From Ignavibacteriota bacterium (GTDB taxonomy: Bacteria > Bacteroidota > Ignavibacteria > Ignavibacteriales > Melioribacteraceae): a DNA stretch of 48,155 nucleotides. Where the stretch lies: contig JABFGH010000034.1 in NCBI GenBank assembly GCA_013112585.1, positions 1-48,155 on the forward strand, written 5' to 3'. Below the pieces are notes generated by a model. It was not told where the DNA came from. It did no database searches and worked only from the letters and a program-made list of their open reading frames with translations. The position numbers were made by a program, and so were the translations under genes. This document shows, piece by piece, positions 22,896 through 42,288 of this stretch (positions are counted from its first letter, which is position 1; each line of letters starts with the position of its first letter).

Positions 22896-24527
22896 TTAAT
22901 ATGAAATTGTATATTCTAAAACTTGCGGCAGTTCAGAATGTTCGCACATAGTCAATTTGTAATTCTTAATTCTCTCACCAAATCGGGGATAATAAAAACC
23001 CTCTTCAATGCTCAAATTAGTACTTTTTGAATCAATACTTAATTTATGATCTGAGATTGAAAAGTGAGCCTTATTCTGTTCAGATTGTAATAATAATAAA
23101 TTCGGGTGCAGATGAACAAAACTTTCTATCAAATGAGTACCTAAACCGTTTACTTTATCAGTTATAATAATTTCTCTTTTTGCTTTATTAAGCTTTATTG
23201 TTCTTTCGTGAATTATATTTTGACCAATCAATTTTGAATAGCCATCGTAAAAACCGCTAAAGACGAATCCGCTTTCAGAAATTTCAAACGATATACTTTT
23301 AGGTTCGTACCTTCGTGCAACTCTAAAACTACCCCAGCATTCCACTTGATCTAAATTATCTATACAAACTGTATTGTGAGATTTTGTTGAACGTAATTCT
23401 TGCCGAATTTTTCCATTTGTATATTCAAATACACCTGTATCAACTATAGCCTTTTTATCATTTATTGATAACTCATAGCTGAAAATATCTGCGTGTGCAT
23501 GAGCCGGAAGAAAATCAGGTCCAATTTCTCCGCCGTCAATTATAATGTAAATATCATCGTCTTTATAAATGTAATAACCTGATGAAGGAAATGAATTGTT
23601 AAACTTTGGTGAATATTTCAATAACTTTTCGGCATATTCTAATAGAGTTTTAGTTGCCGGAGCAATATCATTTGCTGAATCATTGAACAATGCAAGTTCA
23701 CCATTTGGATGAGTATTCGATATTAAAAAGTCCAGCATACTGCAAATAGTTTTTTCAAGTTTCTGATAAAGTTTAAAATCTAAAGGAAGTATATTTAGAA
23801 TATCTAAAAACCCATGCAGCATAATAGCATGGTACATTTGTGTCCGCTCAAAATATCCGCCGTCCGGCAGTACTTGCACAGGTAATTCTTTTAAAAATAT
23901 TTTTACACCTTTATTAAGCCACTTTTCTGATTGTTTAAATTCCTTAAAATATAAGCCTGCAAAAATTAAAGCTTTAGCATTTTCAAGATAGTGATTACCC
24001 GGATGATAAAACTCTAAATTTTTATAAAGATACTCAGTTTGGAAAAACAAACTTCTTTCAATCTCCTCATCATTAAAATTAGCCTTACACCAATTCACTA
24101 TTCTTAATGAAAGGGGATAGGGCGACCAGCCGGTACCATGGGGAAATGGATTATTATTAATCCAGTCTTTACAAAGTTTTATCCGGTCTCTATCCGAGAG
24201 TAAATTGAGATAATTAAAATAGTGTAAGTTATAATCCCAAAGAGGTGAGGATTCTTTTACAATCCACTTATTTGAACCCTCTAATTTCTTGGTGTGACTA
24301 AGAAAAGTAAATTCATATTTTAAAATATTATTAGCTGAATTCCAAGGATCATGATTTAGAAAGGGGACACGGGGAATTAATGAACCTGAAATTTTTATTT
24401 CGGGAATTTTAACATTACTTAAATTTAGTTTTCTTTTAACTGTGGCATATGCTCTTCCAATAGTTTGGCGGGGTTTAAGGTATTTTATAGTGTGGTAATA
24501 TTTTAGGAGAGTGTTAATTTTTGACAA
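22896..24527 (-). CDS. Heparinase II/III-like protein (copy A), no visible signal peptide
   Basis: 543 residues. An alpha-barrel N-terminal domain is followed by a beta-sheet domain, as in heparinase II/III and alginate-lyase-type enzymes. Candidate catalytic residues are Asn178-His179 (PGNHYLENAKAL), Tyr232-His233 (TQMYHAIM), His343/His345 (AHAHADIFSYEL) and His384 (STKSHNTVCID). These enzymes cleave or, in the related dermatan sulfate epimerase, C5-epimerise uronic acid residues. The N-terminus (MSKINTLLKYYHTIKYLKP) is basic without a cleavable signal, so it probably stays inside the cell. It is the last gene of the large EPS operon, 27 bp after a glycosyltransferase gene. Confidence 0.87.
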   Translation of the reverse strand: MSKINTLLKYYHTIKYLKPRQTIGRAYATVKRKLNLSNVKIPEIKISGSLIPRVPFLNHDPWNSANNILKYEFTFLSHTKKLEGSNKWIVKESSPLWDYNLHYFNYLNLLSDRDRIKLCKDWINNNPFPHGTGWSPYPLSLRIVNWCKANFNDEEIERSLFFQTEYLYKNLEFYHPGNHYLENAKALIFAGLYFKEFKQSEKWLNKGVKIFLKELPVQVLPDGGYFERTQMYHAIMLHGFLDILNILPLDFKLYQKLEKTICSMLDFLISNTHPNGELALFNDSANDIAPATKTLLEYAEKLLKYSPKFNNSFPSSGYYIYKDDDIYIIIDGGEIGPDFLPAHAHADIFSYELSINDKKAIVDTGVFEYTNGKIRQELRSTKSHNTVCIDNLDQVECWGSFRVARRYEPKSISFEISESGFVFSGFYDGYSKLIGQNIIHERTIKLNKAKREIIITDKVNGLGTHLIESFVHLHPNLLLLQSEQNKAHFSISDHKLSIDSKSTNLSIEEGFYYPRFGERIKNYKLTMCEHSELPQVLEYTISY

Positions 24528-24554
24528 GATAAAAAATTCCTAATAATTATACAG

Positions 24555-25670
24555 TTAGTCTAAAAACGGGAGAATATTTTCTCTTAATCTTTCGCCAACT
24601 TTTTCCCAGGTGTAATTATTTTTTACAAAATTATGTGCATTTTCACCAAAACGTTTGCATAATTCCGGATAGTCTAAAAGATAAATTAATGATTTAGTTA
24701 ATTGTTCTACATCACCTGGTTCCACGAGTAAACCATTTTCATTTTCAATGATAAGATCAGGCAGAGCTGCAATTCTAGTTGCGACAACAGGTAATTTATG
24801 CATCATAGCGTCAAGGAAAACAATTCCAAATGGTTCTCTTTTCGTCGGCAGACAAAAAATAGACGATCTTGAATATTGAATTGACAACTCCTCTAAACTA
24901 ATATCTCCTAAAATTTCACAATTTCCAATTTCAATTTTCGGTGAGGCACCAGCAATTATTAGCTTAGCATCTGGATGGGTTAATAAGACTTTTTTAAATG
25001 CTCTAATAAGTTCAGGTCCACCTTTTCTATTCCAATCTCTCCCAACAAAAATTATAGTTTTGTTTTTGTAATTATTATTAATAGGCTCCCAGTTATCAGC
25101 AAGTGAAACACTTCCACCTACTCCAACTATTGCAACTCGGTCTTCAGGACACAAATAGTCTTCAACTAATGAGTTTTTTATATTATTCGCGTAGACAAAA
25201 TTTTTCGTGGATTTATTAAATATTATCTTTTCGCGTGAGGAATACTTTGGTGAATAATTGAGATATTCATTGTAATCAGGATATTTTAAGTTTTCAGCGT
25301 GGGTATGATCAGTATAAATAAAATGGGGAATCTTTCCAGTGCTGGTTTCAAACAGAGAATTTCGCTGAAACGTAAATACATATTCCTCAATAGATAATAA
25401 TTCATCAATTATTTTTTTTGACTGTTTAAAAAAATAGTCAGATTTAAAAAAAAGTTTTTTAAAGTTACCGCCTCTTAATGCCTTAGATAAGCCCAATTCT
25501 TTTACTAGATAAAATGAGTTTTTTAATAAAATAAAAAAATTATTTTTTGCAATTTTTACCAAGTCAAATTCTACTACTTCATACTCTGGAAACTTTTTTA
25601 TTAATTGGTCAAGAGTATTATAGCTTGCTGGATGTTGATGAGAATGTATGTAAGCAATTTTCTTTTTCAT
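24555..25670 (-). CDS. Glycosyltransferase family 4
   Basis: 371 residues, GT-B fold. The C-terminal half has IIFVGRDWNRKGGPELIRAF and PTKREPFGIVFLDAMMH, the GT4 donor-binding region; the second acidic residue of the usual EX7E motif is Asp instead of Glu. No signal or membrane segment is seen, so it acts on the cytoplasmic face. It sits between the bi-domain oxidoreductase A and heparinase-like A genes with gaps of 19 and 27 bp, in the same operon. Sugar specificity is unknown. Confidence 0.85.
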   Translation of the reverse strand: MKKKIAYIHSHQHPASYNTLDQLIKKFPEYEVVEFDLVKIAKNNFFILLKNSFYLVKELGLSKALRGGNFKKLFFKSDYFFKQSKKIIDELLSIEEYVFTFQRNSLFETSTGKIPHFIYTDHTHAENLKYPDYNEYLNYSPKYSSREKIIFNKSTKNFVYANNIKNSLVEDYLCPEDRVAIVGVGGSVSLADNWEPINNNYKNKTIIFVGRDWNRKGGPELIRAFKKVLLTHPDAKLIIAGASPKIEIGNCEILGDISLEELSIQYSRSSIFCLPTKREPFGIVFLDAMMHKLPVVATRIAALPDLIIENENGLLVEPGDVEQLTKSLIYLLDYPELCKRFGENAHNFVKNNYTWEKVGERLRENILPFLD

Positions 25671-25689
25671 TTAATATAACAAAGGTTTA

Positions 25690-27813
25690 TCAATATACTA
25701 TGGTTTTCCTAGTATTAATCGATTTAATTATATCAAAACTCATTAAGGTTGAATAATAAATTTCTTCAAAACTAATCGGTGTATCATTACCAAGTTTTAC
25801 AGAATCTAAAAATGATTTAATCTCGGCTTCATGACCTTTATCTTGATTGAGTAATTTCTTGCTTGATTTTTTATTAGAATAAATTTCCATTGATTTAAAG
25901 TCATCTATCACAATTGACATTCCATTTGAAAACACTTCGAGATATTCTTTTGGCATTACTTTAGACCCATTTGAAAAATAAGAAACATTTGCAATACTTC
26001 CATTTTTAAATCTGATATTTACGTTTAATGTGTCCATCAATCCCTGTGGGTCTTCCATCGTATTTGCGGAAAGTGATTCAGGAAGCGAACCTGCTATATG
26101 CATTGCTAAGTCAATAAAATGACAAACCTCACCAAGTATTCTTCCGCCTCCGACTAATTTATCCTGTGTCCAATGATCAAATGGAATAAACCCGGCATTA
26201 ATTCTATAATTAATTGCTTTAGGACCTTTTGCTTTCATTAACTTGTTTTGCTCTGCTATCAATGGGGCAAATCTTCTGTTAAATCCAACCATTAGATGAA
26301 CATCTTGTTTTTGATACTCTTCTTTAATTTCTTCTAGCTCTTCTCTGGTTAAGCATAAAGGTTTCTCAACAAATACATGCTTTCCATTTTTAATTGATTT
26401 TAAAACAAATTCTGCATGAAGATTATGCCTGGTAGTTATAAAAACTACATTAGTGTTCTCATCATTAATTATATCATCAGCATTGCAGGTTGACGAACTG
26501 AAATTAAATTTGTTTGCTATATTTTTAGCTGTATGACTTGATTTGGTCGCAATTGTTCTTAAGGGAAGTTTATCCATATTCGGGAGTAATAAACTTTGAG
26601 CGAATGATCCTGCGCCAATGTAACTTATTCCTAAGGTATCAGCTTTTTTTGTTTGTTTATCTTTTTCAAACTTTGGAGTATGATCCTTTTCAGTATCATA
26701 TCTTAAAAGTATTCCAAGAAAAAAATCACTCTTATCAACTATCATTTGATAAGCATCTATTGCCTGGTTGAAGTCAAATTCATGTGTTGTTAAGTCTTTT
26801 ACGTTCAGTTTACCTTGAGACATTAAATCAAGAACTGATTTCATGTTTCTATTCTCAGTCCACCGAACATAAGCAATCGGGTAATCTAAACCTTTTTCTT
26901 CGTAATTTGCATTATACCGCCCTGGTCCGTAAGAACATGACATTTTCAATTCTAACTCTTTTTTATAGTAATTATCTCTACTGAATCCAGTTGGTACAGC
27001 TCCGACTATCACAACGGTGCCTTTGGTTCTGGATAGTTTACCGGCTGTTTCTACGGGACCTAAACTTGAAGTACCCGCTGTTATTATAACTGCGTCAACC
27101 CCATGCCTATCGGTAGCGTTTAACACAGCTTGTTCCAACTGAGCGTCTGCTGAATTTATTAAAAGTCCGCTGCAAACTTTTTTAGATTCTTCTAATATTT
27201 TATCGCTGAGGTCTGTGCCAATAACTTTAACGCCCGAAGCTTCTAATAATTGAGCTGTTATTTGTCCAATTAATCCCATACCAATAACAAGGCAATTTTC
27301 ACCAAGTGATAAATCAGCTTGCCTAACACCCTGCATTGCTATAGCGCAGACAGTTGTATATGCGGCTTCTTTAAATGAAACATTTTCAGGAATTTTAGCA
27401 ATTAAATTTTCGGTAACTGATATTACCTCTGCATGATTAGCCATTCCTGCTCCTGCACAGGCAACTCTATCACCGACTCTAATTCCTTTTATGTTTTCTC
27501 CAACTTCAGTAACGACTCCCGCTGTTGAATAACCAAGTGGATTAAGAGCATCCAATTTTGTCATCACCTTTTTATAGGTATTAACAATTCCTTCTCGCTT
27601 AACTGTTTCGAGAACTTGCTTTACTTGCTCGGGCTTTTCTTTCGCCTTGCCTATATATCCTTTACGTGCAACCGATACCATTGAGCCTTCGGTGCCGGCA
27701 CTTATTAAGGAGTTATGATTTTTTACTATAACACTGTTTGCATCTAACGATGGAATCGGTACTTCCGTAATTTCCATTTTACCGGTTTTTAAATTCTGTG
27801 TTAACTGTAACAT
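25690..27813 (-). CDS. Bi-domain oxidoreductase A: ADH-like domain fused to Gfo/Idh/MocA domain
   Basis: 707 residues. Residues 1-370 form a medium-chain alcohol dehydrogenase-like unit with NAD(P)-binding GMGLIG (178-183). The usual zinc ligand region (CGSD) reads ISAGTEGS, so the catalytic zinc site looks absent, as in BchC-like relatives. Residues about 394-700 form a Gfo/Idh/MocA sugar dehydrogenase-like unit with GAGSFA (400-405), EKP (483-485) and GEVCHFIDL. Between the two, the motif SCSYGPGRYNANYEEKG...RWTENRNM (292-324) is nearly identical in paralog B. Two dinucleotide sites in one chain suggest linked oxidation and reduction of a sugar. The substrate is unknown; a sugar nucleotide or glycan is likely from context. 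Confidence 0.88.
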   Translation of the reverse strand: MLQLTQNLKTGKMEITEVPIPSLDANSVIVKNHNSLISAGTEGSMVSVARKGYIGKAKEKPEQVKQVLETVKREGIVNTYKKVMTKLDALNPLGYSTAGVVTEVGENIKGIRVGDRVACAGAGMANHAEVISVTENLIAKIPENVSFKEAAYTTVCAIAMQGVRQADLSLGENCLVIGMGLIGQITAQLLEASGVKVIGTDLSDKILEESKKVCSGLLINSADAQLEQAVLNATDRHGVDAVIITAGTSSLGPVETAGKLSRTKGTVVIVGAVPTGFSRDNYYKKELELKMSCSYGPGRYNANYEEKGLDYPIAYVRWTENRNMKSVLDLMSQGKLNVKDLTTHEFDFNQAIDAYQMIVDKSDFFLGILLRYDTEKDHTPKFEKDKQTKKADTLGISYIGAGSFAQSLLLPNMDKLPLRTIATKSSHTAKNIANKFNFSSSTCNADDIINDENTNVVFITTRHNLHAEFVLKSIKNGKHVFVEKPLCLTREELEEIKEEYQKQDVHLMVGFNRRFAPLIAEQNKLMKAKGPKAINYRINAGFIPFDHWTQDKLVGGGRILGEVCHFIDLAMHIAGSLPESLSANTMEDPQGLMDTLNVNIRFKNGSIANVSYFSNGSKVMPKEYLEVFSNGMSIVIDDFKSMEIYSNKKSSKKLLNQDKGHEAEIKSFLDSVKLGNDTPISFEEIYYSTLMSFDIIKSINTRKTIVY

Positions 27814-27828
27814 TAAAAAGCCTTGTTT

Positions 27829-28833
27829 TTACTTTATTAGTATTCTGTAATTTTCTAAAATATTTTTATTAAAATCTTCTTTCTTATGATTATTCACCTC
27901 TAATTCACCTGCATAAACTTGATGAATTTTTTTTGCTAAATCTTTTGCATCACCTGTGTTGAACAAAATAGTTCCTTCCGGTCTTATACTGCAATCACTT
28001 GCAATTATGGGAATATCAAAATGGAGCGCCTCCCTTACTGTAAGAGCATCTCCGTCACTTCTTGTGGGTCTAACCACAACATCCGATTTTTTTATTAATG
28101 ATGAAAAATCTATATAACTTCCAACAAATAAAATTTCATTATTATTTTTTGATTTAAATTTTTTCTTTTCATTTTCAAAAAAATCTTTCATCGAATTACT
28201 CGGGTCTACTAACACTAAAAGTGAATTGCTAATTTTATCTTCACTAACTAGATTGAAATATGTATCAATCAAAGTATCAAAACCATAAAGTTGTTTGCCG
28301 TCAAATTGTACATTCTTAAAACAATTAGCTGAAATGATAAAATCAAATTTTTCTAAATTGTGTAAAAGTGATTCGGGCAGTTCTTCCAATTCGGTTGGTT
28401 CAATGAATGCCGGAATGACCGATATTTTGTTCTCATTCAACTTTGATGAATCTAAATTTGTATTTTTATTATTCACAAGTATGAACTTATCACATAAAAG
28501 AAAAAAAAATCGAAATTTAATTCCATCATTTATTCTAGAATTATGCTGAGTATAAATTACTTTTTTACCAAAAATTTTTGAAAGAATAGCAAAAAAGATT
28601 TTAGAATTATTTGAAATATGTATGTGAACAATTTTTGAACCGAAGAAAGTTCTAACGAAGTTGAGTAAACCAAACTGCTTTCCGTTTCTAAAAACTTTCC
28701 GCTTTCGCAAATCAAACAAACTTAATTCAAAATCATTATCATTTTTATTGATCTCGATAAAACGCTTTAGATGAATAGTAATGCCGCCTACGGGAGGGGG
28801 CAAAGTTCCGAGTATTAGTACTTTTTTCTTCAT
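27829..28833 (-). CDS. Glycosyltransferase (GT4-like), paired with bi-domain oxidoreductase A
   Basis: 334 residues. The N-terminus ILGTLPPPVGGITIHLKRF is a GT-B start, and the C-terminal half has VVVRPTRSDGDALTVREAL followed by PIIASDCSIRPEGTILF. The middle (VIPAFIEPTELEELPE, KQLYGFDTLID) matches the glycosyltransferase at 36975-38036, so the two are paralogs. It lies 15 bp upstream of bi-domain gene A. It probably acts in the cytoplasm on a lipid-linked acceptor. Confidence 0.83.
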   Translation of the reverse strand: MKKKVLILGTLPPPVGGITIHLKRFIEINKNDNDFELSLFDLRKRKVFRNGKQFGLLNFVRTFFGSKIVHIHISNNSKIFFAILSKIFGKKVIYTQHNSRINDGIKFRFFFLLCDKFILVNNKNTNLDSSKLNENKISVIPAFIEPTELEELPESLLHNLEKFDFIISANCFKNVQFDGKQLYGFDTLIDTYFNLVSEDKISNSLLVLVDPSNSMKDFFENEKKKFKSKNNNEILFVGSYIDFSSLIKKSDVVVRPTRSDGDALTVREALHFDIPIIASDCSIRPEGTILFNTGDAKDLAKKIHQVYAGELEVNNHKKEDFNKNILENYRILIK

Positions 28834-28842
28834 TTTATAAGA

Positions 28843-29964
28843 CTATAAAGCTGCTATCATTTTAAGATAATTTTCGGCACCCTTATCAACGCTAAATTCT
28901 TTTGCTCGATTAATTAAAATTGTTTTATCAATATTTCTATCCAAGGTTTTTATTATTTTATCAGCTAAGATCTCATAATCACCAACAGGAGAAAGATAAC
29001 CAATCGATTCATTGTTTATCACTTCATTTGGTCCGCTTGGACAATCCGTACTGACTACCGGGCATCCGCAAGCCAGAGCTTGTATTAGTACTCCCGGAAG
29101 TCCTTCCCACTTTGATGAAAGAACAAAAACCGATGCACGTGATAAGTAAGCAAAGGGATTAGAAACAAATCCTTCAAACTTAACTTTATCACTTATCCCA
29201 AGTTCATTTATCAACTCAATCAACTTCACATACTCTTGATCATTTTCATTGTATTTGCCGAGAATAAGCAAACGTATTTCTTTTTGCTGTGATACTATAT
29301 TGAAAGCTTTTATGAGTGTAGAGAAATCCTTCTGCTCTGATATTCTTCCAACACCAATAATAACAGGTATCTCTTCATCATTGAACCAATCATTATCAAC
29401 AGGTTCATCAGCTCGCTCAAATACCTCTTCATCAATAACAGGATTATAAATAACAGTAATTTTACTTTTTAATCTTGGTAAAGTTTTTTTAAGATCATCA
29501 GCAACACCTTCTGATACTGCAACTATTTTATCACCCCGTCTATAAAGTATTTTTATCATTGAGTCTATTATTTTATCCCAGATGCTTTTATTAGAATCCA
29601 AGTAAACAGAGAATGTATTTGCTTCACGTAGAATTAGTTTAGTATTTACTCCTGCTAAACTTTTAGCAATAATCGCGGCAATATTAACTCTGCTTAGTGT
29701 TGATATTAATACATCAGGTTTTTGTTCAACAAGATATTTACGGAGTTTATTTATAGAGTACAAAACCTTTTTAGATTCAAAGTCAATTACTTCTATGCTG
29801 CTTGGTATATCTTTTAAGTAAGGTCCTTCAGCAATTGCCAGAACCAATTGAGTTTCAATTCCTTTTTCTGCAAAACCTTTTGCCAAGTTCAGCATCATCC
29901 TTTCGGCACCGCCGCCGTATAGATTTGCAACAAATACTGCTATTTTTAATTTACTATTATCCAT
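28843..29964 (-). CDS. Glycosyltransferase family 4
   Basis: 373 residues, GT-B fold, starting IAVFVANLYGGGAERMMLNLA. The donor site region reads VIIGVGRISEQKDFSTLI and SSKWEGLPGVLIQALACG. In the EX7E motif the second Glu is Gln (E-GLPGVLI-Q), a variation seen in some members of the family. It overlaps the epimerase gene by 8 bp and precedes the next glycosyltransferase by 9 bp. It resembles GT4 enzymes of capsule and O-antigen loci; specificity is unknown. Confidence 0.88.
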   Translation of the reverse strand: MDNSKLKIAVFVANLYGGGAERMMLNLAKGFAEKGIETQLVLAIAEGPYLKDIPSSIEVIDFESKKVLYSINKLRKYLVEQKPDVLISTLSRVNIAAIIAKSLAGVNTKLILREANTFSVYLDSNKSIWDKIIDSMIKILYRRGDKIVAVSEGVADDLKKTLPRLKSKITVIYNPVIDEEVFERADEPVDNDWFNDEEIPVIIGVGRISEQKDFSTLIKAFNIVSQQKEIRLLILGKYNENDQEYVKLIELINELGISDKVKFEGFVSNPFAYLSRASVFVLSSKWEGLPGVLIQALACGCPVVSTDCPSGPNEVINNESIGYLSPVGDYEILADKIIKTLDRNIDKTILINRAKEFSVDKGAENYLKMIAAL

Positions 29965-30934: not shown

Positions 30935-30952
30935 ATATATATTAAAATTAAT

Positions 30953-32176
30953 TTATAGCTCTTTGTATATGGTGTTTAATTTATTTGAGTAATTAATTTT
31001 TGCAAAATTTTTATAACCAAGTTTCGAAATTTCTTCCCGAGATAACTTAGATGTATCTGATAAAAAAGCGGATAACTTATTTATATATTCTTTCCGTGAG
31101 TTTTTGTTTGTTACAACGAAGCCAAGGTTATGCCTTTCAACAAAATTGCTATAGTCTCCTATACTTTCGGAAATCATAATGGATAAACCTGTCATAACGT
31201 ATTCAGCGAACTTTGTTGGAGCTGCTACTTCGTTCAATGGATGATTTTCGCGGAGTAAAATTCCCATATCGGCAGCCATCAAATAATTAGGGACCTCCTC
31301 GCGCGTAGCTTTTTTAATATAATAACTCCCATTTGGTAAATTTTCATTTGCATATTTTTTAGCTTCTTCTGTTTGACCCGTGAGAATGACAAAATAAAAA
31401 TTATCCCAGATGTTCATTAATACACGCATGATCTCAAATACTTTATCAGTATAGTGCCAGTATCCCATTCCGCCTGAGTATACAAATACATATTTATTTT
31501 CAATAGATAGAGAATCCCGAATCCTTTCTCTTATTTTCTGATCGAAATAAAATTTTTTATTATCAGCTAAACATGGAATCACATTAATCTTGTCTTTTTC
31601 TGCATGATATTTCTCGACAACCCTTTCTTTTAGCACATTGGAAACACAAAAAATTTGATTTGCTCCGCTTACTAGTTTACTCTGCATTTTTTTATCTATC
31701 CGTGTAATCTTCTCTATTTTTTTTTCGGAAACATTCTGTTTTTTAGCATGATAAATATATTCGGCTAAGGAATCACCACGAATATCATAAACAATTCCAA
31801 TATTTTTATATATTCTTCTTAGTGTTATTGCAATTTCTGCAACAAATGCTCCACGAGTATGCAATATAATTTTCTTTTTCTTTTTTTCTTTTAATAGTTT
31901 TAAAGAAAGAATGCATGTTCCAATAAATTTACTAAATGAACCATACGATTTTCCAATAGGATAGATACTTACATGACCATTAATTTTTTTCTCAATTTCT
32001 TTTTTGTGAAATTTTAAATCCTTGAATCCCGTAATATATGGTCCAAGTCTAATGAAAAAAATCATATTAAATTTTATCCCATTATCCTGAAGTACTTGAA
32101 GATATTCTACTACTTGGGACGTAATTACAGCTTTTGGATATTCTTTAATTAATGAATAGTAAACTCTATTGTTCAA
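30953..32176 (-). CDS. Glycosyltransferase, GT-B type
   Basis: 407 residues. The C-terminal half shows KYVFVYSGGMGYWHYTDKVF and AAPTKFAEYVMTGLSIM, typical of GT4-like enzymes in O-antigen loci; the middle has IVYDIRGDSLAEYIYHA. No signal peptide or membrane helix is evident. Its start overlaps the stop of heparinase-like B by 4 bp (ATGA), suggesting translational coupling. Donor and acceptor are unknown. Confidence 0.8.
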   Translation of the reverse strand: MNNRVYYSLIKEYPKAVITSQVVEYLQVLQDNGIKFNMIFFIRLGPYITGFKDLKFHKKEIEKKINGHVSIYPIGKSYGSFSKFIGTCILSLKLLKEKKKKKIILHTRGAFVAEIAITLRRIYKNIGIVYDIRGDSLAEYIYHAKKQNVSEKKIEKITRIDKKMQSKLVSGANQIFCVSNVLKERVVEKYHAEKDKINVIPCLADNKKFYFDQKIRERIRDSLSIENKYVFVYSGGMGYWHYTDKVFEIMRVLMNIWDNFYFVILTGQTEEAKKYANENLPNGSYYIKKATREEVPNYLMAADMGILLRENHPLNEVAAPTKFAEYVMTGLSIMISESIGDYSNFVERHNLGFVVTNKNSRKEYINKLSAFLSDTSKLSREEISKLGYKNFAKINYSNKLNTIYKEL

Positions 32177-34437
32177 TTATTTGTCTTTTTTGTTGAAGTA
32201 TAATTAACTGTTAAATCTTTAATTTTAATTGAATCAGAAAAATTAGCAGATTCAACTTTAAACTTTTGTATATCTTTATTTAAATTCTCTACTTTAAATT
32301 TATAGTTGGAACTCGGAGATAAGTCGATAAAAACACCTCTGAGTAAAGGAATACTTTCATCATATTTAAATCTTAAAATAGCAGACTCATGTTTCTCACC
32401 ATATTTATCTGATGCCCATCCATCGATAGGTTCCAAATTTGCATTTATTAAATCAATGATAGGCATTGAATCTCCAAATGCACAAATGGAAATTGAATCT
32501 GAATTATTTTTTAAAGATAAAGAAATTTTTCTATTTTTTGATTCAACATTTAATTTTCGATTGTCAATATTAAAATGTTGAATAATTTTATGTTTGCCGG
32601 TACCTTCAATAAAGTCAACAATAATAAGATATTTCTGCTTAACGAATAAAAATTTTCTTTTATGAACAATTCCATTGCTAATATATCCATTGTGACTCAT
32701 TTCAATATAATCGAACTCGGCTTTAGTTTTGAGACTGGATAAAGTAGATGTAGGGAGATTTGAAATTCCAAACCTTGAAGCGGTTACGTTGACCATATCG
32801 GTATCGTCAATTGAGATTGTATTATGTGCACAAGATTTTCTAAAATAAAACCGCCAACTATCATCCAATCCGTATAAATAAGTTCCAGGATCAATTAAGT
32901 ATGTGTAACCATTTTTGTAAAGCTCAAAACTTAAAAAATCCGCATGATTATGACTTTTAGATACACTCTTTCTTAACTTGGTTGGACCACCTCGGAAACA
33001 TATATGAGTTGAGTCTTTTTCAACTCCATCTCTAAATATAGCAAATCCGGTTGGTTCAAAATATTTTGATAATTCTATGGTACTTGTATCAGCGACAGAA
33101 CTAAATTTATTAAATCCATCCAGTCCCATCAACCAAAAGGCTTCTTCATTAAATTTTTTAGTAACGGTTTTAAAGTTGGGTTGATTAAATAACACAGTCC
33201 CAACTGATAAATAATATCTTCTATCGTTTTCATCATATTCTGAAAGTTTAAAGGCTCTGCCAGAATCATTATCTCCAATCTTTGGAATTGTGCCATCTGG
33301 TCTAATAAAAAAAGAGGCATACTCAATCATTTTTTCAATTCGATCACTAACTTCGCTTGAAACAGGTTGTTTGTTTTTTTGAAATAAAATATAAGTTTGA
33401 ATAAGTGAATCTAAAACAAAAAGATGGTAATTAGTTGAAAGTTCACCACTGGGACCCGATTCCCAAATTTGTTTAAGTACTTCACGCTCAAAAATTTTTT
33501 TAGAAATTCTTAACCACTTTTTAGACATTTTGAATTCGGGGAACATAAGAGAAAACATTGCGAGCCCGCAAATTTCGGAAATCAAATGATTGTGAGTAAC
33601 AGCGTTGCGGGAAAGTTTATAATATGTGAATTCTGCATGCTGGTATATAGATTTTAAAAGTTCAATTTTGTTTTCTGTTGTGAAATATTTAGAAGACTTA
33701 AAAAAATAATAACTCCAGATTAAAGAGTTCAGCCTTATTGCACTTTCTTGTGAATTATGCCAGTTTATCCCGTAACCGCAAGGGTTGTCTTTAATCCAAT
33801 CATTTATTATATCTACATATTTTTTTGAATATATTTCATCACCGGTGGCAAAATAAGCCTTGCCTAAAGTTACTAAAAACTGCAATCTATTTAATTCCCA
33901 AAGCTGCCTGGCATCGCCTAACCGTTTTGCACTAAAAATATCTAGGTCTAAAAAGAAAGTTAATGCCCACTGTTTGCCAGAATTAAAATCTTTTCGCCAA
34001 TGAATTGTATCTTCAAATTTCGGACAACTCGGAGTTATCCAATCAAATCTATTTTCCAAAATATATTTTGCTTTTGAAATTGTTTGGGATAGTTCATCTT
34101 TGTAATTGTCCTTGTAAAATGTCTTTAAATTATCATCTAAAGATGTAATAAAAAACGAAGGTTCTTTTCTGTTATCAATATAATCGACAAGTAATTCTAA
34201 AGCATTTTTTTTATTTGCAGATTTAATCGAGTCAATGAGCTTGGATGGAAATTTATTACTGACTTTAATCTGTTCAAAAAAAATTTCATTAGATAAAAAT
34301 TTATCACGACTTGAGAATTTTTTTCTATTTAGTTTTTTAAAATATGGTTTTATAATTCTATTAAAGTAGAAAGATTTTACCAATGAACTAAAACCATCAT
34401 GCTTAATTCTATTTATAATGTTTTTATTAGTTATCAT
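32173..34437 (-). CDS. Heparinase II/III-like protein (copy B), no visible signal peptide
   Basis: 754 residues, about 200 longer than copy A. An extra N-terminal segment (1-130) precedes the alpha-barrel. Candidate active-site residues are Asn283-His284 (VTHNHLISE), Tyr337-His338 (STNYHLFVLD), His496/His498 (SKSHNHADFLSFEL) and His538 (CAHNTISID), in the same order as in copy A. The N-terminus is basic and not a signal peptide. It is tightly placed between the flippase (6 bp) and a glycosyltransferase (4-bp overlap). Likely a lyase or epimerase acting on uronic acids; the intracellular site is inferred from the missing signal. Confidence 0.87.
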   Translation of the reverse strand: MITNKNIINRIKHDGFSSLVKSFYFNRIIKPYFKKLNRKKFSSRDKFLSNEIFFEQIKVSNKFPSKLIDSIKSANKKNALELLVDYIDNRKEPSFFITSLDDNLKTFYKDNYKDELSQTISKAKYILENRFDWITPSCPKFEDTIHWRKDFNSGKQWALTFFLDLDIFSAKRLGDARQLWELNRLQFLVTLGKAYFATGDEIYSKKYVDIINDWIKDNPCGYGINWHNSQESAIRLNSLIWSYYFFKSSKYFTTENKIELLKSIYQHAEFTYYKLSRNAVTHNHLISEICGLAMFSLMFPEFKMSKKWLRISKKIFEREVLKQIWESGPSGELSTNYHLFVLDSLIQTYILFQKNKQPVSSEVSDRIEKMIEYASFFIRPDGTIPKIGDNDSGRAFKLSEYDENDRRYYLSVGTVLFNQPNFKTVTKKFNEEAFWLMGLDGFNKFSSVADTSTIELSKYFEPTGFAIFRDGVEKDSTHICFRGGPTKLRKSVSKSHNHADFLSFELYKNGYTYLIDPGTYLYGLDDSWRFYFRKSCAHNTISIDDTDMVNVTASRFGISNLPTSTLSSLKTKAEFDYIEMSHNGYISNGIVHKRKFLFVKQKYLIIVDFIEGTGKHKIIQHFNIDNRKLNVESKNRKISLSLKNNSDSISICAFGDSMPIIDLINANLEPIDGWASDKYGEKHESAILRFKYDESIPLLRGVFIDLSPSSNYKFKVENLNKDIQKFKVESANFSDSIKIKDLTVNYTSTKKTNN

Positions 34438-34443
34438 GATACC

Positions 34444-35754
34444 TTAATTTTGGTTTTCACCTTGCAGAATTTTTTCTTCTACAGAATCAAAATGTTTATT
34501 TATTGCTTTTTTGGAGATGATTATTATTATAAACATAGCAGCTAACGAAGTAAAAGTTTGAGCAATTGCCGCACCAATTAAACCTAGATATGAAATAAGT
34601 ACATAATTAAAAACAAGGGAAAGCGGTAAGTATATTGTTGTAGAAATAAAATTAAACTTCATCATTCCTAATGCAATAAGAGATGTTGAGAGCAGTGCAA
34701 TATTGCTATGGAATATAAATCCTATTACTAGGACAAAAAAATAAGAGTTTACGCTATAATATTCCTCACCAAAAAACAGATAAATAATAAGTGGAACAGC
34801 AATCGAAGAAAGTGCAGCAATACCAATCGATTGAAGTAACATTAACTTTCTGTATTTTTTTAATACCCTATTAAATTCTTTTCTGTCGTTCTGTTTCTCT
34901 GAGAAGTATGGAAGTGCAACTTCTCGAATAGATTTTGTTATTTCGCGAAGTGGGACTAAAAAAATTGTTGCTAGACTATAATATCCAAATCCAATTCTAT
35001 CAGCTATTAAGAAGTTTAAAATCAAAATATCCATAGATCTTGTGAGGCGTTCAATAACATTTGCTGCAACACTCCATTTTGCAAGATAAAAACTTTTTTG
35101 AAAGATTAATTTTGAAGCAACTTTTTTACTTCCAGTGATAAACTGTTTAATAAATTTATAAACAAATGGCAATAAGAGGTAACTAATAGTAACTGAAGAA
35201 ATGATGTAGCCCCAGATTCCAAATAAATAAGTCAGTAGTATTAATGATACAATGCCGATAGTTCTAAAAATAATTTGTACTGTCGCCATTTTTTTTATTT
35301 CTTTTAATGCCTGGAGGTAATTGGAAAGTATGCTAGTAATTACTCCCGCAGGAATCGATAGCATAAATATCGGCAGCATCTGATTGATACTATCATCGGG
35401 GGAAAGAACTTTGAACTTTGCTAATAAAAACAATGTTAAAAGTGAAACTGCTGTTGAAGCAAATGAGAATTTAATATTCTGCCTTAGAATTGATGATTTT
35501 TCTTCAAGGGGTCTCTTTTCAGAACATAATTTTAAAACAGATATGTTAAAACCAAATCCTGCTACTATTAATGCAAGCATCGAAAATGACTGCATTGTCC
35601 TTATTTGCCCCAATTCAACCGGAGATAAAAATTTAGCCACAAACAGAACTGATCCAAAACCAAGTACTCGTAATAAAATACGTGCTGATAGTAGGTGAAA
35701 TAATCCCTTTTTCTTAACATCATTTACAAGTGATGTAAAATTTTTAATTTTCAT
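34444..35754 (-). CDS. wzx: Wzx-type polysaccharide flippase
   Basis: 436 residues with about 12 membrane helices, MATE/MOP-superfamily polysaccharide transporter. Typical features are the start LLSARILLRVLGFGSVLFVAKFL, an LSPVELGQIRT loop after helix 1, and charged residues between helices (RLTRSMDILILNF). It would move the lipid-linked repeat unit from the cytoplasmic to the periplasmic side. Its presence with a polymerase and a Wzc-like protein supports a Wzx/Wzy mechanism. The gene symbol is by role, not by close identity. Confidence 0.88.
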   Translation of the reverse strand: MKIKNFTSLVNDVKKKGLFHLLSARILLRVLGFGSVLFVAKFLSPVELGQIRTMQSFSMLALIVAGFGFNISVLKLCSEKRPLEEKSSILRQNIKFSFASTAVSLLTLFLLAKFKVLSPDDSINQMLPIFMLSIPAGVITSILSNYLQALKEIKKMATVQIIFRTIGIVSLILLTYLFGIWGYIISSVTISYLLLPFVYKFIKQFITGSKKVASKLIFQKSFYLAKWSVAANVIERLTRSMDILILNFLIADRIGFGYYSLATIFLVPLREITKSIREVALPYFSEKQNDRKEFNRVLKKYRKLMLLQSIGIAALSSIAVPLIIYLFFGEEYYSVNSYFFVLVIGFIFHSNIALLSTSLIALGMMKFNFISTTIYLPLSLVFNYVLISYLGLIGAAIAQTFTSLAAMFIIIIISKKAINKHFDSVEEKILQGENQN

Positions 35755-35778
35755 ATTTATATTAACAATTTTATCCTT

Positions 35779-36939
35779 TTAGAGTGAATCAGTCGACCTA
35801 ATTGGATAAAGTCCCGCTTTGAGATTCTTAGCTAATTGTGTAGTTGTTATAACCTCAATATCATTTGCGTTTGCAAGGTATTCAGCATGTTTTTCTATAC
35901 TTTCAAAATTTCCAATGTTTTTTGTATGGTTGGCAATTATTATAGGAACAAATTCTAAGGAGGAATGATAAGCTTTTTCTCTAATATCACTCATCATTTT
36001 TTTAAAAAGCGAATAATTCAAAATTGATAAGTCAGAAATTCTATGCTTTTTCTGTATAAATATTTGTATCTTATTCCAAAAATTATTCCTTGGTTTTACT
36101 GAATTCCCATTAATAAAATATGAATATTCCTTTAAATTATATCCAGCATCTTTAATATTTATCACTCTTGGTGATAAATACCTATCAAGTTTTCCAACAT
36201 AATTACTAAATATTTTATGATTTCTTAGCTTTTCAAGCAAATAAAATCCAACATTGGTTCTTGCATAAAAAGAGTGAGTAGGAACACAGATTATGGAATT
36301 TTTCGATGTTCCGATCCTTCTAGCATCATTTAAGTTTGGGTAGTATGGCAAAAAGGGTTCTTCAAGATTAGTGTAATCAAATTTAACCGGGAAATTACTA
36401 ACCAAATTATTTACCAAACTCATATCAAATATCATTTGATTTCTTTTTAAGACTCGAATAATGAAATCACTTGGTGCAATTGCCCAAGTACCTGCTCTAA
36501 ATGATATTGACTTATAATTTGAATCAATTGGTTTTAGTAATCCTTCCAAATAACTGATACTTTGTTTAATAAGCTTATCAGCAATTTCCTCGTTGTAGTT
36601 TACAATGTTCCAATCAGATGTTAGGTCCCATCTAAAATTGTTATAGGTCCCATCAATCCAATGAGTATGAAGATGAATTTGCATATCATGCCCGCGAGAG
36701 AAAGCATCTTTCACAACCTCTTCCCATTCATCAGAAATTTCTTGAAGTTCACTAAATTTATCTCCAAACTTTTTATGATAGAATTGTTGCATCAACTCTA
36801 CATTGAAAGATCCTTTTAATCCATAATTATCGTAAATTTTGGTTATTTTCTTTAATGTATCAAATTGAATTGCTCTAGCATTTCCACTACCATCACCCCG
36901 TAATTCCCAATCGTCAGTAAGTACCAGATGTATTTTCAT
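35779..36939 (-). CDS. Polysaccharide deacetylase-like protein (NodB-type barrel)
   Basis: 386 residues, no signal peptide. The N-terminal part begins MKIHLVLTDDWELRGDGSG with two candidate metal-binding aspartates (9, 10) and continues with a histidine-rich motif GHDMQIHLHTHW (His84, 89, 91, 93). This resembles polysaccharide deacetylase/WalW-like barrels that bind a metal. Related proteins appear in capsule loci, often with unproven activity. It lies between the GT paralog B and the flippase with short gaps (35 and 24 bp). If active, it would remove an acetyl group from a lipid-linked or nucleotide sugar in the cytoplasm. Function is inferred. Confidence 0.65.
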   Translation of the reverse strand: MKIHLVLTDDWELRGDGSGNARAIQFDTLKKITKIYDNYGLKGSFNVELMQQFYHKKFGDKFSELQEISDEWEEVVKDAFSRGHDMQIHLHTHWIDGTYNNFRWDLTSDWNIVNYNEEIADKLIKQSISYLEGLLKPIDSNYKSISFRAGTWAIAPSDFIIRVLKRNQMIFDMSLVNNLVSNFPVKFDYTNLEEPFLPYYPNLNDARRIGTSKNSIICVPTHSFYARTNVGFYLLEKLRNHKIFSNYVGKLDRYLSPRVINIKDAGYNLKEYSYFINGNSVKPRNNFWNKIQIFIQKKHRISDLSILNYSLFKKMMSDIREKAYHSSLEFVPIIIANHTKNIGNFESIEKHAEYLANANDIEVITTTQLAKNLKAGLYPIRSTDSL

Positions 36940-36974
36940 TTATTTTTACTCAATAATTATTCAAGATCTTTTTA

Positions 36975-38036
36975 TTATAATTTTTTTATCAAAGAAATAA
37001 TTTCTCTGTAGTAATTAAGGTAACCAATTTTTTTAATTTCATTTTTATATTTATCCAAATGTAAAAGTGTTTTGTTCACAATATTGTAATAATCGTTCAA
37101 ACTCCTATTTTCAAATAAAATACAACCATCAGGCCTGCTAACTGCATTACTTGCCACCACGGGAATATTCAAATACAAAGATTCCCTAATTGATAGTGCA
37201 TCACCGTCTGTGTTAGTTGGACGAACAAATAAATCAGATATTGCTATCAATGCTGAAAATGAGATATTATAAGTAATAAACAGAATGTTATCATTCAATG
37301 AATATTTATCGACAAGATTAATAAGAGAATTAAAGTAGTTTATATTGGCAGTATCTGGAACTACTAATATTAGACCAACATCAAACTCATTGTTATTTTT
37401 TTTTAATAATTTCATCAATTCAATTGACAGATCAAATCCGTATAGATCTTCACCTTTATAAAATTTTAATTTTGCAGCGTTAGATGCAATTACTCTATTA
37501 AAGCGACTTCGAAATCTTAGTATTTCCTTTGGTAAATTTTCTTTTTTAAGTTCATCCTCAGTTGGTGGGATAAAGGCAGGAATATTCTTTATTTTTTTTG
37601 ATGGAATAAACATAAAATCAGTATTTGGATTTACACTTATTACTAACTTAGAAAATGTAAAATACAAACGAGTGAAAATTCGTAATGCTGGTCTAACTGC
37701 TAAATAGAAATCTCTGAACCTATTATTGTGATAATAAATAATTGTTTTAACCCCAAATATTGACGATAAGATTGATACAAGTAAATGAAACCTCCAACTT
37801 TGGAATTGATGAACAAGGAGAATATCGTATTCATGTTTGATGCCCTTAAAAAAAATCTGCCAGTGAGTTAAATACTTAAAATTTATTTTTTCTCTATGCG
37901 CATAGTAGTGATAAAATTGAAAATCTAATTCTTTATCCTTATTCAATAAATTAAGAAACCGTTTCATATGAGTTTCCACCCCCCCATTGGCAAGTGGATG
38001 AGGCCCATAAATAAGCAATCGTTTATTATTTTTCAT
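36975..38036 (-). CDS. Glycosyltransferase (GT4-like), paired with bi-domain oxidoreductase B
   Basis: 353 residues. The start LLIYGPHPLANGGVETHMKRF and the C-terminal LFVRPTNTDGDALSIRESL, VVASNAVSRPDGCILF mark a GT-B enzyme. Shared segments with the glycosyltransferase at 27829-28833 (IPAFI-P-TE-EL; EDLYGFD; RPT-DGDAL-RE-L) show the two are paralogs. It overlaps the stop of the bi-domain gene B by 4 bp, so the two should be made together. Specificity is unknown. Confidence 0.83.
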   Translation of the reverse strand: MKNNKRLLIYGPHPLANGGVETHMKRFLNLLNKDKELDFQFYHYYAHREKINFKYLTHWQIFFKGIKHEYDILLVHQFQSWRFHLLVSILSSIFGVKTIIYYHNNRFRDFYLAVRPALRIFTRLYFTFSKLVISVNPNTDFMFIPSKKIKNIPAFIPPTEDELKKENLPKEILRFRSRFNRVIASNAAKLKFYKGEDLYGFDLSIELMKLLKKNNNEFDVGLILVVPDTANINYFNSLINLVDKYSLNDNILFITYNISFSALIAISDLFVRPTNTDGDALSIRESLYLNIPVVASNAVSRPDGCILFENRSLNDYYNIVNKTLLHLDKYKNEIKKIGYLNYYREIISLIKKL

Positions 38037-40192
38037 TGTTTTAAATTTTTATTAAAATTAAGTAAACTATCAACAAAAATAGATATTTTAGCTGCGAGAG
38101 TAGATTCATTTATAGTAATAAGCTCAGATTTTTGACCTTTAACCTTTTTAATAAATTCAATCATTTGCTCCTCATGACCTTTATTCTGTTTTTTCAGTTC
38201 AATATCTTTTCTACTAAATCCAAATAGTTTCAATTTTGTAAAATCATCAATAATAATTGATTTACCATTTGAATGCACTTCAATATACTCCTTCGATTGT
38301 TTAGTACTGCTAATACTCGTATATATTAAATTACCAATGGAGCCATTTTTATATTTAATTGTAGTGACAACATTATCTTTAGCAATTACACTTTGATTAT
38401 CAACGTTAATATAATCTGCAGAGATTGATTCAACTTCTGATTCAATGAAAAAGTTCATTAAATCAAAAAAATGACATCCCTCGCCAATTATTCTACCACC
38501 CCCAATATCTTTTTGTTGTGTCCAATGTTCAATGGGGATTACGCCTGCGTTCACCCTATAATTAATAATCATAGGAGAATTTTCTCTGCTAAGAATTTTT
38601 TTTGCTTCTACTGCAAGTGGCGAGTATCTTCTATTATATCCGACTGCAAATACTACTTTACTTTCCGACGCCAGTTTTTCAAGAGATTCAACTTCTTCAC
38701 TGAAAATACCCATGGGTTTTTCAAGAAGAATATGTTTTTTGTGTTTTAGTGAATCAATTGCCATTGGAAAGTGAAGATTATGTCGCGAAGCGATTATAAC
38801 ACAATCAACGGAATTATCGTTCAATATTTCAGAATAGTCAGTAGAACAATAATTAGCGCCAAAATCATCTGCAATTTTTTGTGCACTTTTCCCAGTTTTA
38901 GTCGCAACTGCTAATAAGTTAGTATCCTTTAGTTTGTGAATTAATGGAAGATGTGTGCGGCTAGCAAACCCACCTGCACCGAGAACAGCAAAATTAATTT
39001 CTTTATTTTTTTCTATTTTCTGAACGCTTGTACTTCCGGTCGTTTTTTTCAGTAGTTTTCGATCAACATCTGAATTTGGATAGTTTAACACTACTGCAAT
39101 TGTTTGCTTGGACTTCGAAATTATCTGTTGAAAAGCTTGTACAGAATTTTCAATATCATAGTAACCGCTGATTAATGCTTTTACATCAATCATTTTTTGA
39201 GATAACATCCAAAGAAAAGCCTGCATATTCCTATTTTCTGTCCAGCGAACATAGCCTATAGGATAATCGATTCCCTTTTCTTCATAATTTGCATCATATC
39301 TTCCCGGTCCATAGGAACATGAAATTGTAAAGTCCAATTCCTTCATATAGAATGGTCCTCTTATCAAGTCCATCCCTACTAACCCGACAATGACAACTTT
39401 TCCCTTCTTACGTGCAATCTGTAAAGCCTGATTTGCAGGCTCACTACTCGGGGTTGCCGCGCAAATTAAAACTGAATCAGCCCCAGCTTGTGAAGTAAGA
39501 GATTTTATATTATCTACAACTGCGTCCTCACCTTCAACAAAGCCATAATCCATACCGAGGGATTTAGCAAAGTCAACTCTTTCTCTATTCAAATCAATGC
39601 CGAATACTCTACAGCCTGAAGCTTTTAATATTTGTACCGTTAATAAACCAATAAGTCCAAGTCCAATAACAACAGCATTTTCACCGAGTTGTACATTAGC
39701 TTGCCTGACTCCTTGAAGAGCAATACTGCCCACAGTAGTGAAACTTGCTTCAACAAAATCAACTGGATCAGGCAATTTCGTCACTAAGTTTTTAGGTACT
39801 GAAACAACTTCCGCATGTCCTGCAATTCCGGAACCTGCGGCTGCAACCCTATCCCCAATTTCAAAATCAATAATGTTTTTACCTTTATTTATAACTATAC
39901 CTGAAACACTATAACCACTAGCAGATGCAATATTATCTCTACTTTTTAATTTTCTTAAAAACTCTTCATAACCTTTATCTGCTATATAGCTGCTAGCTTT
40001 TTTTAATTCAGAGACTTTTTTTGTAATCGCTCCGCCTGCAGATTTACGGTCACCTTTTAGTCCAATTGTTTCGGTGCCACTGCTTATTAAAGAATTTTTT
40101 ACCTCAATCAATATCTCACCATCTCCAACAGATGGTGCAGGAACGTCTTTAACAATAAATTTTTTATTACCCGTTTTGAACAATTGTTTCAT
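38033..40192 (-). CDS. Bi-domain oxidoreductase B: ADH-like domain fused to Gfo/Idh/MocA domain
   Basis: 719 residues, same architecture as paralog A. The ADH-like half has GLGLIG (177-182), and the zinc-ligand region reads ISSGTETI without the usual Cys. The Gfo/Idh/MocA half has GAGGFA (405-410), EKP (491-493), VIPIEHWTQ and GEGCHFFDL. The 291-323 segment (SCSYGPGRYD...RWTENRNM) is almost the same as in A. The gene overlaps the polymerase gene by 26 bp and the glycosyltransferase gene by 4 bp. The shared linker signature suggests the two paralogs handle chemically similar substrates. Reaction unknown. Confidence 0.88.
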   Translation of the reverse strand: MKQLFKTGNKKFIVKDVPAPSVGDGEILIEVKNSLISSGTETIGLKGDRKSAGGAITKKVSELKKASSYIADKGYEEFLRKLKSRDNIASASGYSVSGIVINKGKNIIDFEIGDRVAAAGSGIAGHAEVVSVPKNLVTKLPDPVDFVEASFTTVGSIALQGVRQANVQLGENAVVIGLGLIGLLTVQILKASGCRVFGIDLNRERVDFAKSLGMDYGFVEGEDAVVDNIKSLTSQAGADSVLICAATPSSEPANQALQIARKKGKVVIVGLVGMDLIRGPFYMKELDFTISCSYGPGRYDANYEEKGIDYPIGYVRWTENRNMQAFLWMLSQKMIDVKALISGYYDIENSVQAFQQIISKSKQTIAVVLNYPNSDVDRKLLKKTTGSTSVQKIEKNKEINFAVLGAGGFASRTHLPLIHKLKDTNLLAVATKTGKSAQKIADDFGANYCSTDYSEILNDNSVDCVIIASRHNLHFPMAIDSLKHKKHILLEKPMGIFSEEVESLEKLASESKVVFAVGYNRRYSPLAVEAKKILSRENSPMIINYRVNAGVIPIEHWTQQKDIGGGRIIGEGCHFFDLMNFFIESEVESISADYINVDNQSVIAKDNVVTTIKYKNGSIGNLIYTSISSTKQSKEYIEVHSNGKSIIIDDFTKLKLFGFSRKDIELKKQNKGHEEQMIEFIKKVKGQKSELITINESTLAAKISIFVDSLLNFNKNLKQ

Positions 40193-41669: not shown

Positions 41670-41784
41670 TTATTTTTTTATGTAATTAAATTTAAGTATT
41701 GTAAAGACATTAATCATTTTATTAAACATCTTAAATTTTGCTCAATTAGATATAATTTATTAAAAATATTAAGAGGGCTTCAAA

Positions 41785-42249: not shown

Positions 42250-42288
42250 TAGTATCTCCATTGAGATTAGTCTAAACTGAATTTAAAT

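Follow-up and report, generated by a model that had tools for sequence, protein, structure and literature searches.

A bi-domain oxidoreductase and a heparinase-fold protein linked in bacterial surface polysaccharide loci, with a possible role in uronic acid stereochemistry

Described gene pairs and the locus under study

Among the closest described counterparts of a gene pair for a bi-domain oxidoreductase (OX) and a heparinase-fold protein (HEP) is the zbdP-hepP operon of Pseudomonas aeruginosa PA14 (PA14_23420-PA14_23430). In it, zbdP codes for a medium-chain dehydrogenase/reductase (MDR) domain joined to a Gfo/Idh/MocA domain, and HepP gave no export signal with PSORTb (PMC5732420). At the DNA level, the pair is restricted to PA14OR, serotype O10, and one other strain (PMC5732420); PA14 is of serotype O10 (PMC3974807). 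The PA14 O-antigen has the structure -4)-alpha-L-GalNAcA-(1-3)-alpha-D-QuiNAc-(1-3)-alpha-L-Rha-(1-, where L-GalNAcA is N-acetyl-L-galactosaminuronic acid (PMC2997053). In Vibrio vulnificus YJ016, VV0357 and VV0358 are each required for the capsule (PMC6037467). The Vibrio polysaccharide (VPS) of V. cholerae contains N-acetyl-L-gulosaminuronic acid (L-GulNAcA); C5 inversion of N-acetyl-D-mannosaminuronic acid (D-ManNAcA) was proposed as its source, with the enzyme left unnamed in the available parts of that paper (PMC3901696). Here, we analyzed a window of 48,155 nucleotides, contig C34 of a 77-contig, 4.94-Mb Bacteroidota genome. It holds a minus-strand polysaccharide locus with Wzx/Wzy-type genes, recognized with Pfam and by reading of the open reading frames, and the product of this locus is a Wzx/Wzy-dependent surface polysaccharide. 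The locus contains two oxidoreductase genes, OX_A (25690..27813) and OX_B (38033..40192), and two genes for heparinase-fold proteins, HEP_A (22896..24527) and HEP_B (32173..34437). We take zbdP-hepP to lie in the O-antigen cluster of PA14, which agrees with the published strain restriction.

The published pairs were compared with OX and HEP by description only. The PA14 operon has the same composition, that is, an oxidoreductase gene and a gene for a ~550-aa heparinase II/III-type protein with no export signal detected. It differs in its interpretation, as the available parts of PMC5732420 treat it as a virulence-related heparinase and draw no tie to O-antigen sugar chemistry. VV0357-VV0358 is probably a pair of the same type, and both genes are needed for capsule formation; a difference is that Phyre2 gives VV0357 two transmembrane helices (PMC6037467). 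A reading of the window from sequence alone had proposed the system as its best candidate for an undescribed one. This stands only in part. Mutants of zbdP-hepP and VV0357-VV0358 have been published (PMC5732420, PMC6037467), and in the open-licence PMC literature we found no paper that treats OX-HEP as a module or assigns the inversion leading to L-GalNAcA, although others may exist.

Linkage and co-evolution of the two genes

Three genome samples were used: 197 genomes of the window's own class, other classes of the same phylum (rows G200-G404), and 370 genomes of the class to which G420, the source of Methyloversatilis locus L074, belongs. We take the latter class to be Gammaproteobacteria in GTDB. 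In the other Bacteroidota classes, HEP was located within 10 kb at 21 of 36 OX places, with match edges within 500 bp at 12 of them. In the class of G420, the corresponding numbers were 25 of 36 and 16. The chance expectation per OX place, computed from assumed mean genome sizes, is ~0.002 in the former sample and ~0.001 in the latter. Nine plasmid records contained OX, at full length in seven cases, and HEP adjoined OX in five of these seven. Among 80 OX loci on named genome contigs, which are the best matches to OX_A and in many cases lie on short contigs, HEP was present at 10. In the own class, OX was found in 93 of the 197 genomes and PF07940 in at least 115, the listing of PF07940 matches extending down to E ~1e-11.

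The histories of the two genes were compared by means of tree distances. For 36 loci with both genes, OX and HEP distances correlated with r 0.50 (0/5000 permutations). The correlation was retained after removal of host phylum (34 loci, r 0.45, 0/5000) and within Bacteroidota only (27 loci, r 0.45, 1/5000). These tests were run without L033, which has an aberrant HEP, and without L234 and L235, which are near copies of L229; the host-phylum-removed test was also run without L053 and L077, for which the host phylum is unnamed. Groups that cross host boundaries appeared in both trees, namely a Lewinellaceae locus (L071) with a delta-proteobacterial one (L070) and L053, and a Sphingobium locus (L227) with Bacteroidota loci L244 and L246. 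Since identical host-crossing groupings recur in both trees, the data suggest joint transfer of OX and HEP.

Linkage of this kind could arise from mere shared residence in polysaccharide islands, with OX and HEP functioning independently. Each gene does also occur alone, and the tree distances of HEP_A fit neither OX of the window. Shared residence does not readily account for match edges at most 500 bp apart at 28 of the 72 OX places of the two pooled samples, nor for a co-phylogeny that crosses host phyla, and no enrichment with HEP is seen for AsnB, which also belongs to such islands. We consider this explanation quite improbable.

The misfit of HEP_A is one of several findings that weigh against a general pairing. 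Outside the window, the own class gave 101 OX rows, of which 77 were read with flanks and the others were placed only by their coordinates in the PF07940 listing; HEP was present at only 3 of these 77 loci. A 73-leaf OX clade (support 0.74) is without HEP, and a GT-type (glycosyltransferase) gene was near 7 of its 51 members read with flanks. The other 87 OX leaves read had a GT-type gene in 66 cases and HEP in 14. Finally, OX at L116, L152, and L267 adjoins housekeeping-type genes (bacA, DNA polymerase III delta, ymdB, FAA hydrolase). The linkage of OX and HEP is clade-dependent, and much of the low own-class value is due to the HEP-free clade. As L116 and L152 belong to this clade, their neighbors indicate that OX has other roles, outside polysaccharide islands. 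Loci L081-L110, with a flank of ~1.5 kb each, were omitted from all neighborhood counts. Taking both sides together, we conclude that OX and HEP very probably form a functional module.

The sequence-only reading had proposed a module of three classes, including the GT represented in the window by GT_A (27829..28833) and GT_B (36975..38036), and had expected their co-occurrence above background. For OX and HEP, this was borne out, as the two are recurrent, co-evolving, and linked far above chance in two samples. It failed for the GT. Among the OX loci read, the GT_A/GT_B subfamily was near OX (34 to 1351 bp) at only four non-window loci (L063, L067, L266, L275). The own-class search found the subfamily in 11 of 197 genomes, the window's own and ten of one family (f16), and these ten gave no OX match. 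The GT was therefore rejected as a general third member and is at most an occasional companion of OX or HEP. In at least nine of the ten f16 genomes, GT and HEP matches lay on one contig, ~5.6-11.4 kb apart, among the matches listed.

AsnB was also rejected as a module member because it showed no excess in OX loci with HEP (11/37, compared with 37/135 without HEP). The identity of the AsnB-like neighbors was verified by a scan of ten proteins. All seven such neighbors tested matched Asn_synthase; the scan further comprised a GT, a Wzy_C protein, and a protein with no match. A separate observation concerns OX-free HEP loci of Bacteroidia, which often carry an asparagine-synthase gene: it was found in 13 of the 23 fetched (L169, L170, L187-L191, L194, L195, L202-L205), a non-random set of own-class loci hand-picked from PF07940 matches and own-genome matches. 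This hints at uronamide formation. At a Cyclobacteriaceae locus with OX and HEP, a phosphoenolpyruvate mutase + cytidylyltransferase protein follows directly after HEP (L039:3803-5098).

The two proteins and their proposed chemistry

OX_A and OX_B contain an MDR domain followed by a Gfo/Idh/MocA domain in one chain of ~700 aa, as determined with Pfam and a structural model. Annotated plasmid relatives carry the PGAP name bi-domain-containing oxidoreductase. Alignment showed that Ser37-x-Gly-Thr-Glu and Gly93-Tyr-Ser are invariant in 28 of 28 OX at the presumed zinc-ligand places, which were located by alignment; His126 is also invariant. A canonical zinc MDR would presumably have its ligands, Cys and Gly-His-Glu, where OX has Ser37 and Gly93-Tyr-Ser, and the MDR domain of OX thus apparently lacks them. 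In the Gfo domain, Glu491-Lys492-Pro493 and His574 are kept in all 28 proteins. The model of OX_B (mean predicted local distance difference test score, pLDDT, 82.6) had as near folds MDR enzymes as well as Gfo/Idh/MocA enzymes, including KanD2, GenD2, and NAD-dependent sulfoquinovosidases. KanD2 and GenD2 oxidise the 3'' hydroxyl. The C-terminal half of OX resembles these Gfo/Idh/MocA sugar dehydrogenases and IolG in sequence, fold, and the Glu-Lys-Pro motif; unlike them, OX has a second, MDR-type NAD(P) domain fused to it. In Mesobacillus foraminis (NZ_CP033045.1, 4793-6229), a single match covers two annotated genes, one for the MDR half and one for the Gfo/Idh/MocA half, which represents a naturally split OX.

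The model of HEP_A (pLDDT 74.9) was best matched by the heparinase III-type HepC (4mmh, Z 27.5, 428 residues) and has the (alpha/alpha) toroid and beta-sandwich fold. The comparison with human dermatan sulfate epimerase (6hzn) gave Z 20.8 and a root-mean-square deviation of 4.0 over 459 residues. One set of 12 HEPs shows no variation at residues N178, H179, Y232, D347, Y369, and H384. Four of them, N178, H179, Y232, and H384, are present in both HEP_A and HEP_B and, save N178, are invariant in a second set. The GNH and YH regions align with HepC, and we assign the roles of the active-site Asn, Tyr, and His as in the lyases of family PL12, to which heparinase III and HepC presumably belong. Tyr232 and Tyr369, candidates for the Tyr pair in the His/double-Tyr set of human dermatan sulfate epimerase 1 (DS-epi1), are conserved in the HEP alignments, Tyr369 at 90% or more in the second set.

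HEP thus shares with PL12 enzymes the fold over most of its length and aligned Asn-His, Tyr, and His...Asp regions. It differs in three respects. Firstly, it misses the HepC equivalog cut-offs of NCBIfam (600-700 bits), with 74.2 and 52.2 bits for HEP_A and 142.5 (of 600) and 136.1 (of 700) for HEP_B. Secondly, its gene lies in a biosynthesis locus. Thirdly, an export signal is not evident: in a simple hydropathy scan, 19 of 20 OX-linked HEPs, HEP_A and HEP_B included, showed no hydrophobic stretch at the N-terminus, and neither did 22 of 23 HEPs of other loci with GT or AsnB genes, some of the mechanical starts, mostly high-GC ones, being possibly wrong. Because the signal is apparently lacking, HEP would act inside the cell. 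DS-epi1 provides a precedent, as it is a C5 uronosyl epimerase of the same, lyase-like fold that works in biosynthesis; it differs from HEP in that it acts on polymer in the Golgi lumen (PMC8006597), and the identity is only 13%.

The gene content for sugar supply also differs with the presence of HEP. Of the OX loci of at least 12 kb, 27 of the 37 that contain HEP had a uronate-forming dehydrogenase (UGD/WecC type) or wecB, as did 28 of the 135 that lack it. In loci with at least one GT, the numbers were 26/36 and 19/66 (p 3e-5), and after removal of plasmids 21/31 and 17/64 (p 3e-4). AsnB showed no such excess in GT-containing loci (11/36 with HEP, 32/66 without). NCBIfam equivalogs identified WecB and UDP-ManNAc dehydrogenase (WecC) in L246 and WecC in L227; the dehydrogenase of L263 is nearest to TviB and falls below the TviB cut-off. 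L227 comes from Sphingobium strain AntQ-1, and its sister locus in Sphingobium sp. CFD-2 (L237) has HEP and wecBC, with no OX annotated in that stretch. The WecB-WecC pathway to UDP-ManNAcA, which is often present in loci with OX and HEP, provides a D-sugar, and the step to L-GalNAcA or L-GulNAcA lies outside it.

The reactions, substrate, and site of action that we infer are as follows. On the cytoplasmic side, OX and HEP would edit the configuration of a hexuronic acid, either ahead of the transfer of this sugar to the lipid carrier or afterwards. The heparinase/dermatan-epimerase fold and the active-site residues are retained in HEP, which would not cut a polymer but would remove a proton from C5 of the uronate and return it, with inversion. 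Inversion at C3 would be the task of OX: the 3-hydroxyl would be oxidised to a ketone by one NAD domain, and the other would reduce the ketone from the opposite face. Two NAD domains fused in one protein would suit oxidation and re-reduction at a single carbon. D-manno and L-galacto configurations differ at C3 and C5, and D-manno and L-gulo at C5. Starting from UDP-ManNAcA, made by WecB and WecC, C5 inversion would give L-GulNAcA, and inversion at both C3 and C5 would give L-GalNAcA. In the window, the donor could also be UDP-GlcA or UDP-GalA (the UDP-activated glucuronic and galacturonic acids). The assignment of C5 to HEP and C3 to OX is based on this stereochemistry, the DS-epi1 precedent (PMC8006597), and the paired NAD domains. 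We hold this specific chemistry tentatively, as plausible and somewhat short of probable.

HEP could instead be a genuine polysaccharide lyase, serving to trim or clear wrongly assembled polymer in the course of biosynthesis, with OX an unrelated nucleotide-sugar enzyme of the same pathway. Alginate lyase plays such a role in alginate operons. The active-site residues of HEP are of lyase type and the nearest solved structures of HEP_A are lyases, the closest being heparinase III; recombinant HepP (rHepP) cleared heparin on a plate, which was taken as heparinase activity (PMC5732420), and in the available parts of their paper the V. vulnificus authors lean towards a lyase (PMC6037467). A lyase without an export signal, as would be the case for the 19 OX-linked HEPs, would not meet the finished polymer, however, and the V. 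vulnificus capsule was abolished on loss of HEP (PMC6037467). Nor is a clearing enzyme expected to co-evolve with a cytoplasmic oxidoreductase. We regard a lyase function as rather unlikely.

Alternatively, OX and HEP could act in sequence on one sugar; for example, OX may form a 3-keto (or 4-keto) uronosyl unit, from which HEP would generate an unsaturated or deoxy uronic acid by beta-elimination. The linkage and co-evolution data fit this scheme equally, and among the Gfo/Idh/MocA folds close to the OX model are NAD-dependent enzymes that cleave glycosides, for example the sulfoquinovosidases. The PA14 O-antigen speaks against it: in the available account, this sole known polysaccharide structure tied to such a pair has L-GalNAcA and no unsaturated sugar (PMC2997053). 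The sequential scheme seems clearly unlikely.

The lyase-like structures and the heparin clearing weigh against C5/C3 inversion, and there are further points on that side. N178 and Y369 fall short of full invariance (90% or more) in the second set of 12. Of the 7 HEPs in loci that lack GT/AsnB genes, 6 likewise have no hydrophobic N-terminus (the exception is L201), so that its absence does not single out OX-linked HEPs. Neither wecB nor a dehydrogenase gene was found near the 23 OX-free HEP loci fetched from the own class, and the window is without wecB, wecC, and ugd. Other contigs of the window's genome carry a Ugd-like gene, another nucleotide-sugar dehydrogenase, and two wecB-type epimerases. 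In PA14, mutation of hepP impaired pellicle formation, biofilm, and worm killing, and mutation of zbdP hardly did so; the biofilm of the zbdP mutant was well developed, that of the hepP mutant was not (PMC5732420). Given this difference in biofilm, the two genes are not equivalent in PA14.

It is possible, and distinctly doubtful, that the missing epimerases which make L-GulNAcA and L-GalNAcA from D-ManNAcA or other D-uronic units in bacterial cells are HEP, acting at C5, and OX, acting at C3. The HEPs would then be the first bacterial cytoplasmic heparinase-fold C5-epimerases, working on a precursor or lipid-linked unit. Their partner OX would be a C3 epimerase with two fused NAD domains, and loci of this kind would extend over at least five phyla.

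Origin of the paralogs and the remaining genes of the window

The letters A and B denote two sets, each of an OX, a GT, and a HEP, which the sequence-only reading had described as one cassette duplicated in the operon. All six genes were found where it had placed them, on the minus strand, and its protein classes were confirmed by Pfam: the OX pair matches ADH_zinc_N and GFO_IDH_MocA, the GT pair group-1 GT models, and the HEP pair Hepar_II_III_C and Hepar_II_III_N. The homology it had claimed for the oxidoreductases and GTs is real, and the HEPs are homologous as well. Identity amounts to 283/721 residues for the OX pair (39%, E 3e-168), 109/314 for the GT pair (35%, E 5e-43), and 120/499 for the HEP pair (24%, E 4e-23).

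Three homologous pairs within one locus are what duplication of a single cassette, making two related modifications, would leave, and GT_A and GT_B are sisters in the GT tree (support 0.71). The order of genes, OX_B > GT_B > (35779) > Wzx > HEP_B > ... > GT_A > OX_A > GT > HEP_A as transcribed, contradicts it, as OX precedes GT in set B and follows it in set A, and the HEPs are placed differently. So do the trees. Among 170 oxidoreductases, OX_B falls into a ten-leaf clade (L003_759, L113, and L114 among its members), far from OX_A and deeply separated from it. Among 50 HEPs, HEP_A clusters with L111, L192, L169, and L228, and HEP_B lies elsewhere; HEP_A is closer to a third copy in the genome (G000:C10, L111; 42% identity) than to HEP_B (22% in the same comparison). 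The duplicated-cassette reading was therefore dropped as hardly credible.

The matching A/B splits that it had predicted were not observed either. Rank correlations of distances were -0.14 for OX_A-HEP_A, 0.55 for OX_A-HEP_B, 0.44 for OX_B-HEP_B, and 0.02 for OX_B-HEP_A, so that HEP_B fits both oxidoreductases. The swapped pairing fitted better than the original one in 26 of 30 bootstraps and, in a second run, in 57 of 60 (raw) and 53 of 60 (normalised). In trees restricted to loci with both genes, L039 was the sister of OX_A and also of HEP_B; in wider trees, L001 was the leaf closest to OX_A and L195 the one closest to HEP_B. Because the L039 sister pairs are absent from the wider trees, the pairing claimed for the window relies on the distance correlations. 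The two OX and the two HEP would differ in origin and would have been brought together in the window, and the repeat unit may contain two uronic acids edited in this way. A Delongbacteria locus (L003) contains A-clade and B-clade OX together, plus HEP and AsnB, which indicates that such mixing has happened elsewhere, independently of the window.

HEP_A is a short protein with a TTG start, and its gene is part of a block in common with L192, a locus of genome G157 from the same order as the window. L192 repeats a run of a 570-aa-type protein, a PF00953 transferase, a GT, HEP, and a GT. As G157 gave no OX match in the own-class search of 197 genomes, the HEP_A block is found without OX; it is probably of older date. 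Elsewhere (L228, L256, L263), HEP_A-type proteins are linked to OX of other clades. The remainder of the block in the window (17942..22589) codes for the 570-aa protein (17942-19654), a WecA-like PF00953 phosphoglycosyltransferase beside it, and a group-1 GT. The 570-aa protein has a weak GH123_N match and a relative at the same place in L192 (496 bits).

The other genes of the locus were assigned with Pfam, and all are on the minus strand. A group-1 GT gene (24555..25670) separates OX_A from HEP_A, GT_A lies 15 bp before OX_A, and GT_B overlaps OX_B. The segment 28843..32176 codes for a group-1 GT, a short-chain dehydrogenase/reductase of the nucleotide-sugar epimerase/dehydratase type (29957-30934), and a GT with a weak Pfam match. 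The Wzx-type flippase gene (34444..35754) is preceded, in the direction of transcription, by one for a 386-aa protein (35779-36939), for which profile scans gave no Pfam or NCBIfam match at E 0.001. A Wzy_C polymerase/ligase, an SLBB export protein, and a Wzc-like co-polymerase/kinase are encoded at 40167..44703. At the locus edge, an FGE-sulfatase-domain protein (45617-47224) adjoins a Por_Secre_tail protein, the latter being expected since the host belongs to Bacteroidota. The same genome has a second polysaccharide locus (G000:C10:32500-52400, L111), with an HEP_A-like gene (544 aa), a MurJ-like flippase, a Wzy_C protein, GT4, and GT9. It adjoins a 1908-aa Peptidase_C25 protein, and no OX was found in that stretch.

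L-configured amino-uronic acids belong to surface polysaccharides such as the PA14 O-antigen (PMC2997053) and V. cholerae VPS (PMC3901696), in the available accounts of which the inversion enzyme is not named. If the proposed chemistry is true, many 'heparinase' and 'zinc-binding dehydrogenase' genes of capsule loci have been misread as degradation or virulence enzymes. The stereochemistry of the sugar would then be predictable from the genes, with HEP alone indicating C5 inversion, and HEP together with OX indicating inversion at both C3 and C5.

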